DNA of 64,000 nucleotides from Candidatus Eiseniibacteriota bacterium. GTDB lineage: Bacteria > Orphanbacterota > Orphanbacteria > Orphanbacterales > Orphanbacteraceae. Below are positions 33,540 through 37,933 of the stretch, one piece after another. The DNA is taken from the NCBI GenBank assembly GCA_024276995.1, contig JAJRWB010000008.1, positions 73,642-137,641 of the forward strand. The letters are read 5' to 3'. The translations under genes and the position numbers were made by a program. Numbering within the stretch: position 1 is the stretch's first letter; the number at the start of each line of letters is the position of its first letter. A model generated the notes under the pieces. That model did no database searches. It was given only the letters and a program-made list of their open reading frames with translations, and was not told the DNA's origin.

Positions 33540-34949
33540 ATGAGAAAAATAACGGCATTCTTCACCCTCGCGTGCGCGCTCGGCCTCGGCCTCGCCGGCT
33601 GCAGCGCCTTCGGCCTTTTCGGTCCAAAGGGACCGCGCACGGTTACACTTTTCTTCTCGAACGAGACGATCGGCGAACTGAAACCGTGCGGGTGACACTC
33701 CAAGGGCAAAGGCGGGCTGGCCCGGCGGGCAGGCGAGATCAATGCGAAGCGTGCGGAGAATCCGGTGGTGGTGCTCGATCTGGGCAACTGGACGACGCGG
33801 AAGAACCCCTCCTACGGATACAGCATGCCGGTCACCATGGAGTGTCTCGAACGGATGGGGTACGACGCCCTCGCCATCGGGGATAAGGAAGTGAGCCTCG
33901 GGCTCGCGAGGACCGACACCCTTCTCAAGCAGCACAACCTGATCGGGTTGAACGCGAACATCGTTTCGGACAGCACCGGTGAGCCGCGGTTCACCCCTTA
34001 CCGGGTCATCCGGGCGGGTGATCTGAAGGTGGGTGTCACGTCGGTGATCGGCGGCGACGCGGTGATCGCGCGGACGATCAAGGAGCGGGAAGGGATCCGT
34101 GTGGAGGACCCGATCGAAACAGGTCGGGCGATGCTCGAGCAGCTCCGGCGGAAGAAGGTCGATCTCACCGTGCTGATCGCCCATACAGGTCTAAGGAAAG
34201 GGGAGATTCTCGCCGACTCCCTCTCCGGCTACGACGTCGTCCTGATCGGCCACGGCGGCAATATCATGGCGGAGCCGAAAAAGGAGAAAGGTGTCATCCT
34301 CGCCGCCGCCGGGTCGCGCAGCAACCAGCTCGGCTACCTCACCCTCGTGGTGGAAAACCGGACGGTGACGAACTTCGAAGGGAAGTCGTGGCAGCTCCAG
34401 CAGAACGACGGTCCCGTGGACGAGGTGGTCAAGGACCTGACGTGGACTCATCTCGAACTCGACGAGAACGGGGTGCGGATCAAGAAGAGAAAGACGAATC
34501 CGGCGGAGAGTACCGACAGCACGGCTGCGACCGACGGCGCCGACGCGGCGAAGACGCCTCCGCCGACGAAGGCGTATCTGGGAAACGACAAGTGCCGGGC
34601 GTGTCACGCCGACATCTACGCGTCGTACATGGAGACGCCCCACGCGAACGCCTTCGAGGTGATCGCCAAGAGCGAGGAGAATTGGCAGAAGGGCGAATGC
34701 TGGAACTGCCACGTTCTCGGCTACGGGGAGCCGACGGGCCACTCCACCACGGAACTCCAGCCCGACCTGTGGAACGTCCAGTGCGAGTCGTGCCACGGCA
34801 TGGGCACCGAGCACAGCCGCGGCGGCGAGATGGCGAAGGTCACCGAGGAGACGTGCACCGCCTGCCACGTCGAGAAGTGGAGTCCCGGTTTCGACTACGC
34901 CTCGGCGCTGAAAAAGGTGGCGCACAAGTCGAAGCGCACCTGGAACTGA
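33540..34949 (+). CDS. Tetraheme c-type cytochrome lipoprotein with 5'-nucleotidase-like domain; probable selenoprotein
   Basis: 469 residues if the in-frame UGA at 33693-33695 (codon 52) is read through. A lipoprotein signal ends at LAGC (Cys21). The first domain resembles metallophosphatase/5'-nucleotidase proteins (LFFSNETIGELKPCG, VVVLDLGNW, YDALAIGDKE, TVLIAHTG) although several metal ligands look degenerate. After a Thr/Ala-rich linker comes a cytochrome c554-like region with four CxxCH haem motifs at residues 352, 387, 415 and 439. The UGA falls where, as I recall the family, homologs have Cys in a CGC-x5-GGLARR motif, so selenocysteine is the best explanation; the frame and domain continue uninterrupted after it. 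A sequencing error or a pseudogene are the alternatives. Likely exported, membrane-anchored and redox-active. Confidence 0.75.
33693..33695 (+). other. In-frame UGA, probable selenocysteine codon
   Basis: The reading is Pro-Cys-Gly-UGA-His-Ser-Lys, with GGLARR six residues on. A hairpin CGGG (33713-33716), loop CTGG, CCCG (33721-33724) lies 18-29 bases after the UGA, about where a bacterial SECIS apical loop is expected, but the stem is only four pairs and the region is GC-rich, so the support is weak. Confidence 0.6.
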
Positions 34950-35719: not shown

Positions 35720-37933
35720 GTGAGTGGTATCCATTTCTCTCTCCAGCGAGGGAACCCCCTTCTCCTCCTCGCGGCGCTGGCGGTCGCCCTCCTCCTGGCG
35801 CTTTGGTTCTACAGGAGCACACTCCCCCCGCTGAAGCGATCGTCTCGCCGCCTCCTCGCGCTCCTCCGTTTCGGGTCGATCGGTCTCCTTCTTTTCCTCC
35901 TATTCGATCCGCTGGTTACCTTCGAGACGGTGCGCAGCGTCAAGCCGAACGTGGTGGTTCTCGTCGACCGAAGCGCGAGCATGGGCATCCGGGAGAGCGA
36001 CCCGCGCACCGGCGATCCGCTGAGCCGCGCCGAAGAGGCGGAGGCGATTCTCGAGAAAGGCCCCCGCTCGCTCCGAAAGAAGCTCTCCCGCCGCTACGAT
36101 CTTTCGGCGTTCGCCTTCTCCGATCACGTCGAACCGTACACGAAGGATGCACGGATGGGAGACCGCACCAATCTCGCGATGGCGATGACCGAATCGATGA
36201 ACGCCGAGTGGGAAAGGGGGGTCGATGCTTTCATCATCCTTTCGGACGGCATCATCAATGCCGGCCGCGATCCGGTGCGGCTCGCCCGCGAACTGGCGGT
36301 GCCGGTCTTTCCGATCGCCATGGGAAGCGCCCTGCCGGCGAGGGACCTGTCGATCCAGCAGGTGCTCGCCAACAAGATGGTCTACGTGAACAGCCGCGTG
36401 TCGGTGGAGATCGCGGTCCGGGGAAAGGGTTTCGCCGGAAAAAACGTACCGATCCGGATTCTCGAAAAGGGGGAACCGGTGGCCGCCGGCGAAATCGCGT
36501 TCCGGGAGAAACGGGAGAGGCGCACGGTGACGCTCGATTTCCCGATGAGTCGCGAGGGAATCCACCGTTACGAGGTCGAGATTCCTCTCCAGGAGGGGGA
36601 ACAGGTATCGGAGAACAACCGGTTCCTCCTCACCATGGAAGCGGTGAAGGAAAAGGTGAAGATCGTCGTCCTCGCCGACCGGCCGGGGTGGGATTTCGCC
36701 TTTTTCAAGAGGGTCCTCGATCACGACGCGAACCTGGAGGCGGACTGCTTCGTTCAGCGGAAGGACGGCCGCCCCGGGAGGGTGGACGGCCCTTCCGGAC
36801 CGGCGTTCCCCTCGACGGCGGAACAGCTCGCCCCGTACGACCTCGTCGTGGTGTTCGGCACGCCGGCGGCGCTTTCGCGGGAGTGGGACGGCGCGATCGA
36901 CTCGTTCGTCCGCCGTCGAGGCGGGTCGCTGATCTTCTTCGCCCCCGATCCGCTCACCGGGCCGATTCCCGACCGCTTCGCCGAACTCCTCCCGGTGAAG
37001 CTCGTCCGGGGAAGGGACGGGTACTCCACCGCGCCGTTTTCGGCGAAAATCACGGTGCGCGGAAAGAGCCATCCGATCGTGAGGATGAACCGGGACGAGA
37101 AGAAGAATCTCGCCCTCTGGGAGGAACTCCCCCCGCTGCAGGGCGTCAACATCGTCGGTGCGCCCAAGGGCGGTTCCACCGTGCTCGCACGCCATCCCAC
37201 CCTTCGCGCCGAGGGGCGCGACCTCGCACTGCTCGCCCTCGCCGGCGCCGGGAAGGGGAGCGTCTTCTTCGCCAACGGCTCGGGTTACTGGAACTGGGAT
37301 TTCCGCATGTGGGGCGCCGGCCGGACGAACCGGACGTACGAACAGCTCTGGTCGAATGTGATCCGGTGGATGGTGGCGCGCGGCGGTTTCCGGAACGTCT
37401 CGGTGCAGCCGGAGAACCTGACGTACAACCGCGGCGACGAGGTGGTTCTTCGCGGGCGGGTGATGGACACCGCCCTTGAGCCGGTGAGCGATGCCCGTGT
37501 GGAAGTGACTCTCACCTCCGCCGACGGCGACGAGCGCCGTTTCTTTTTGCAGCCTTCCTCCGGCGAGGCGGGCTCGTTCGAGAAGTCCCTCGGATCCCTG
37601 CCCCCCGGCCGGTTCCACTTCACCGCCACCGCCGTGCGGCGGGAAGAGATGCTCGGCGAGGATAGCGGCGAGTTCACCGTGAGCGAGTTCAGCGCCGAGT
37701 TTCTCGAAACGGAGCGGAACGATCCCCTTCTGGCGTCGATCGCCGCGGCCGGCGGGGGACGGATGATCGACGCCGGCGAACTCGACCGATGGGACGGGGA
37801 CCTGGGCCTCCAGATGCGAAGCGTCAGCAGCCGGAGGGAACGGGAGATCTGGAACTCCCCGTTCTTCTTCTTCGCCCTTATCGCCCTCCTTTCCACCGAA
37901 TGGCTCTTCCGGAAACGGAGGGGGCTTTCGTAA
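35720..37933 (+). CDS. VWA-domain membrane protein
   Basis: 737 residues from a GTG. Two membrane segments at the N-terminus (about 13-31 and 46-66), then a von Willebrand factor A domain (about 77-250) with an intact metal site: Asp83-x-Ser-x-Ser in DRSASMG, a later Thr, and LSDGIINAG. The middle (about 320-560) has a Rossmann-like, glutamine-amidotransferase-like arrangement (KIVVLADRPGWDFAFFKRVLDHD, LVVVFGTPAALSREWDG), followed by an Ig-like beta region, and a final membrane segment (about 713-728, FFFFALIALLSTEWLF) with a basic tail. Similar proteins occur widely in diderm phyla beside MoxR/VWA clusters, but no MoxR ATPase is here. Function unknown; probably a periplasmic scaffold. Confidence 0.75.
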   Translation: MSGIHFSLQRGNPLLLLAALAVALLLALWFYRSTLPPLKRSSRRLLALLRFGSIGLLLFLLFDPLVTFETVRSVKPNVVVLVDRSASMGIRESDPRTGDPLSRAEEAEAILEKGPRSLRKKLSRRYDLSAFAFSDHVEPYTKDARMGDRTNLAMAMTESMNAEWERGVDAFIILSDGIINAGRDPVRLARELAVPVFPIAMGSALPARDLSIQQVLANKMVYVNSRVSVEIAVRGKGFAGKNVPIRILEKGEPVAAGEIAFREKRERRTVTLDFPMSREGIHRYEVEIPLQEGEQVSENNRFLLTMEAVKEKVKIVVLADRPGWDFAFFKRVLDHDANLEADCFVQRKDGRPGRVDGPSGPAFPSTAEQLAPYDLVVVFGTPAALSREWDGAIDSFVRRRGGSLIFFAPDPLTGPIPDRFAELLPVKLVRGRDGYSTAPFSAKITVRGKSHPIVRMNRDEKKNLALWEELPPLQGVNIVGAPKGGSTVLARHPTLRAEGRDLALLALAGAGKGSVFFANGSGYWNWDFRMWGAGRTNRTYEQLWSNVIRWMVARGGFRNVSVQPENLTYNRGDEVVLRGRVMDTALEPVSDARVEVTLTSADGDERRFFLQPSSGEAGSFEKSLGSLPPGRFHFTATAVRREEMLGEDSGEFTVSEFSAEFLETERNDPLLASIAAAGGGRMIDAGELDRWDGDLGLQMRSVSSRREREIWNSPFFFFALIALLSTEWLFRKRRGLS

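Follow-up and report, generated by a model that had tools for sequence, protein, structure and literature searches.

The survey of GOS sequences published in 2008 listed a group named 'COG0737, UshA-like, CxU' with 76 selenoprotein sequences (PMC2398784). The group was listed again in a 2022 review (PMC9312934) and corresponds to the NCBIfam family NF041198, 'UshA_like_PCGU', in a 2026 catalogue (PMC13188914). The NF041198 profile (519 positions) covers a phosphoesterase-like domain and a tetraheme region, the latter at positions 346–519 in relatives, and has a curated whole-protein cut-off of 275 bits. The gene studied here lies in a 64,000-nucleotide stretch of DNA that was analysed as a whole (the window). 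Like NF041198 members, its product carries the PCG[U/C] motif, PCGU or PCGC standing ahead of GG[LV]xRR, and an UshA-type domain followed by a tetraheme C-terminus. The original prediction did not know this family as one of selenoproteins; the group has been catalogued as such since 2008, and the window gene is a further, divergent example of it, not a new kind of selenoprotein.

The window protein matches NF041198 in two stretches (5e-66, 223.3 bits) that take in the heme region as well as the UshA-type one. This score is below the cut-off, as are those of its tetraheme orthologs (209–249 bits), whereas a paralog in the same genome (L039) passes it with 296.7 bits; on a tree, the window protein falls in a separate clade. 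Therefore we describe it, on sequence grounds, as a divergent sister subfamily within the known selenoprotein group and not as a strict NF041198 member.

Three other described systems resemble parts of the protein. NF049981 (UshA-like (seleno)protein family 2) is also an UshA-related selenoprotein group, but the match is weak (residues 35–120, 1.8e-9, 37 bits for a cut-off of 140), and its motif is CxxU (PMC13188914) whereas that of the window protein is CxU. Cytochrome c554 of Nitrosomonas (PDB 1bvb) is related by profile to the tetraheme domain, which in the window protein is joined to a domain with Sec. MccSep (PDB 9wt8, 9wt9), named multiheme cytochrome c selenoprotein by its depositors, shows weak similarity confined to a single heme stretch (E 0.0025); it is a different protein, and the match leaves out the Sec domain. 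A literature search on MccSep found no relevant paper.

Gene and encoded protein

Translation from the ATG at 33540 to the terminal stop (TGA 34947–34949) gave a frame with one internal stop, the TGA at codon 52, in the context ELKPCG*HSKGKGGLARR; the coordinates of the original prediction (frame 33540–34949, broken only by this UGA) were exact, and the lipobox upstream and four CxxCH motifs downstream were found as it had described them (Table 1). The heme motifs are CRACH, CWNCH, CESCH and CTACH; the domain that carries them matches Pfam PF13435 (9.5e-14), and the CxxCH columns are invariant in an alignment of 27 homologs. Ortholog lipoboxes read LAGC, FAGC, LGGC, LTGC or GAGC. The export signal, the heme motifs, the Sec codon and the loss of nucleotidase residues described below are all directly visible in the sequence. 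Gene callers that terminate at TGA will cut the window gene short.

Table 1. Coordinates of the selenoprotein gene and its features in the window
Feature	Position	Strand	Description	Evidence
Selenoprotein gene, exported lipoprotein	33540–34949	+	469 residues, Sec at 52	Translation, orthologs, NF041198 match
Signal peptide with lipobox LAGC	33540–33602	+	Cys21 is the predicted lipidated residue	Read from sequence
UshA/CD73/SoxB-type domain, catalytic His missing	33636–34470	+	About residues 33–310	
Sec codon UGA, residue 52, in PCGU	33693–33695	+	Partner in the CxU motif is Cys50	
SECIS-like hairpin	33716–33734	+	GGC triloop at 33724–33726	Fold, covariation, published model
Tetraheme cytochrome domain, four CxxCH	34590–34890	+	About residues 351–450	Related to cytochrome c554

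Four other explanations of the locus were considered and rejected: a working nucleotidase, a split gene, a sequencing error and a reassigned code.

Nucleotidase fold and active site

Over approximately residues 30–310, a structure model of the window protein (mean pLDDT 82) matched SoxB and the 5'-nucleotidase of E. coli, with Z scores of 30–32 and an rmsd of about 2–3; the N-terminal fold is shared with UshA/CD73 and SoxB over about 275 residues. The structure-search matches were filled by nucleotidase-type chains, which cover one domain, and sequence comparison was used to locate the heme domain. The Sec loop (residues 50–56) was poorly modelled, and its position was therefore taken from the sequence alignment.

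Active-site positions were mapped by profile alignment to the catalytic His and metal ligands of CD73. None of the 27 aligned homologs has the catalytic His (CD73 H118) or the first metal-binding His (H38). In the window protein, the GNHE of nucleotidases is GDKE, the positions of CD73 D36, H38, D85 and N117 hold Glu, Ile, Asn and Asp, and the first-shell positions other than those of the two lost histidines are occupied by E42, N83, D115, H215 and H238. Hence, of the features of a 5'-nucleotidase of the UshA/CD73 type, the fold is present, but the catalytic His and the set of dimetal ligands are not, and the earlier description of the protein as nucleotidase-like is right for the fold and wrong for the active site.

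A functional metal-dependent nucleotidase or phosphoesterase in which Sec and hemes are incidental would be compatible with the match to the E. coli 5'-nucleotidase (Z about 32) and with the metal-site His 215 and His 238, which are kept in the window subfamily together with polar residues at some of the other positions. We regard this as improbable, given that the histidines corresponding to H118 and H38 are lost throughout the alignment, that the D36, D85 and N117 positions hold E, N and D in the window protein, and that the family has instead retained residues 49–52 and the four hemes. Compared with UshA, CD73 and SoxB, the window protein lacks the catalytic His and some metal-site residues, and has gained Sec and hemes. 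The name 'UshA-like' is thus misleading as to function, CxU and the hemes being retained and the nucleotidase centre gone.

Conservation of the in-frame UGA

Orthologs were searched for in 60 related genomes, six of which belong to the same family as the source genome. A single internal TGA was found at the same codon in the orthologs of all six, which are about 53–63% identical to the window protein over the aligned length (the G005 copy, located at a contig end, is incomplete at about 190 residues). In the 27-row alignment, the column of residue 52 holds 20 Sec and seven Cys and no other residue. A larger homolog set gave 29 Sec and 18 Cys rows; it was selected by a motif that demands U or C, and the absence of other residues from it is only partly informative. 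On a tree built with residue 52 masked, the Sec/Cys label was clustered (six changes, compared with 14.6 expected by shuffling). Residue 52, Gly58, Gly59 and the heme-binding residues are conserved among the 27 homologs, and Cys50 is present in 26 of them.

Orthologs therefore keep the in-frame UGA, and distant homologs have Cys in its place (PCGC), as the original prediction had anticipated in proposing a Cys/Sec pair. These comparisons strongly support the assignment of residue 52 as a selenocysteine. One paralog (L052:5359-6780) reads EPVGU, Val replacing the motif Cys so that Sec stands without its usual partner; the Cys–Sec pair is therefore not universal.

The same data bear on whether the UGA simply terminates translation, the downstream part being made separately, e.g. 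as a 394-residue product from GTG 33765. A frame from this GTG exists mechanically, but its product would be devoid of the signal peptide required for c-type heme attachment. Furthermore, the codons that separate the UGA from 33765 (GGLARR) encode one of the best-conserved segments in the family, and the Cys homologs are continuous proteins, which makes a split product very improbable. Since orthologs carry the same TGA, an error of sequencing or assembly, or gene decay through a nonsense mutation, is already refuted and keeps practically no probability, in spite of the origin of the sequence from a single MAG in which selA shows an apparent frameshift: the same-family genomes that share the codon at 53–63% protein identity are independent, and coding conservation extends on both sides of the TGA.

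Selenocysteine machinery in the source genome and in relatives

The source genome encodes a tRNA-Sec (71 bits), for which ARAGORN gave the anticodon TCA. A selB gene scoring above the cut-off (G000:C69:71449-73311) lies on the same contig and ends about 330 bases before the first base of the window. The selA gene (G000:C12:38616-39982; L067, L068) is broken into two reading frames, whose matches overlap by 8 residues. It is intact in four relatives, and the split in the source assembly is likely to be an assembly error. The selD gene (G000:C49:5158-6081; L070) carries a TGA in frame within AGUAAK, the usual Sec/Cys site of SelD. This TGA therefore serves as an internal control, and the source genome probably encodes one or more selenoproteins besides that of the window. 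A third likely selenoprotein is the L039 paralog, at C41. In conclusion, selA, selB, selC and selD are all present, as a selenoprotein in this genome had been expected to imply, though selA is interrupted by one apparent frameshift.

With this machinery in place, a genome-wide reassignment of TGA to an ordinary amino acid, which would also leave the frame 33540–34949 open, has a negligible likelihood: it is contradicted by TGA being the commonest stop (it closes 20 of the 31 large open frames in the window that do not overlap, and the selenoprotein gene as well), and there is one internal TGA only, at the Cys column.

Among the 20 other genomes with a TGA-form gene, 17 have a tRNA-Sec at 59 bits or more, and the remaining three (G005, G031 and G334) have SelB. 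In G031 and G334, which combine a TGA-form gene with SelB, tRNA-Sec matches did not exceed about 43 bits; their tRNA-Sec is either divergent or missing from the assembly. For comparison, 16 genomes were chosen in which the listed match was free of stops. A clear tRNA-Sec was found in seven of them, one of which also has a Sec copy; the other nine had no clear tRNA-Sec, and SelB was absent from all eight of these nine that were searched for it.

SECIS-like hairpin downstream of the UGA

The published bacterial SECIS model requires a loop of 3–9 nt with G in the first two positions, a stem of 4 bp or more, a spacing of 16–37 nt and a folding energy of -7.5 kcal/mol or lower (PMC13188914). In the window, a hairpin whose GGC triloop begins 28 nt after the UGA fits this model at -8.9 kcal/mol with one mismatch, its stem being interrupted by a G.A mismatch between runs of 4 and 3 bp. 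A hairpin 18–29 bases downstream of the UGA had been proposed; a hairpin consistent with SECIS is indeed present, but it is better placed at 33716–33734.

In 17 Sec genes, standard pairs filled 93% of the pair cells of this hairpin, compared with 87% in shuffles, and two pairs had changed on both sides; sliding the pairing partner removed most of this covariation signal. The Ala-Arg-Arg codons beneath the loop are GCC CGG CGG in 16 of the 17 Sec genes and are more variable in Cys genes. In the wider set, 26 of the 29 Sec genes and only six of the 18 Cys genes have an ungapped hairpin that reaches the threshold. The window copy is among the three Sec genes that missed it in this strict ungapped-stem scan, because of its G.A mismatch; within its group, no hairpin is weaker. 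The folding energy of the window hairpin does not beat that of shuffles in this G+C-rich sequence. Support for the hairpin comes from conservation and covariation, and not from thermodynamic stability alone. Ten Sec genes of other lineages (L018, L024, L076, L083, L084, L089, L091, L092, L095 and L101) have a GGUC-type loop 18–19 nt after the UGA, in another register than the GGC triloop at 28 nt.

The selenocysteine reading of the original prediction has thus stood up in each of these comparisons: the TGA is conserved, homologs have Cys in its place, the sel genes and a tRNA-Sec are present, and the hairpin fits the SECIS model.

Proposed function

We hold with high confidence that the window gene encodes a genuine selenoprotein, a divergent relative in the UshA-like CxU group that would be an exported tetraheme lipoprotein. 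UGA codon 52 would be decoded as Sec by SelB and Sec-tRNA, presumably aided by the hairpin, which begins about 20 nt further on, and the product would be exported as a lipoprotein facing the periplasm. In its N-terminal domain, of predicted 5'-nucleotidase/SoxB fold and deprived of the nucleotidase catalytic residues, the Cys-Gly-Sec motif would lie just after the first strand, near the would-be metal site. Cys50-Gly-Sec52 may form a redox centre that exchanges electrons with the four hemes and acts on a periplasmic substrate. The likeliest reading of the sequence data is that the window protein is a periplasmic redox lipoprotein with a Cys-Gly-Sec centre wired to four hemes. Because of the relationship with SoxB, our best guess for the substrate, a tentative one made by analogy, is a sulfur or thiol compound. 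It is also conceivable, if rather doubtful, that the Eisenbacteria clade forms a subfamily of distinct function, the former metallophosphoesterase pocket having become a Cys-Gly-Sec redox site wired to four hemes and with a substrate of its own; the extra heme-free paralog (L046, L047) would then represent a further split of this function.

Gene neighbourhood and additional paralogs

Gene order around the selenoprotein gene is kept in five of the six same-family genomes, which come from four genera. The downstream sir2 and the next gene are common to all five syntenic relatives, and tsaB, rimI, accD and lptD are found upstream in the four whose stretch reaches that far; the identities of tsaB and rimI are our reading of Pfam hits and gene order. 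An uncharacterised selenoprotein group is thereby extended to Candidatus Eisenbacteria, in a conserved neighbourhood of core genes; within the library of papers searched, none mentioned selenocysteine in these bacteria. A 737-residue frame adjoining sir2 (35720–37933) is in conserved synteny in five related genomes and had no Pfam match at 0.001.

In a codon-usage scan of the window for read-through TGAs, the real Sec TGA ranked only tenth; such a scan therefore cannot find selenoproteins alone, and no further candidate is claimed. Two related genomes have an extra Sec paralog (L046:5557-6618 and L047:5770-6747) about 45% identical to the window protein, which is devoid of heme motifs and has kept the PCGUHSKGKGGLARR motif.
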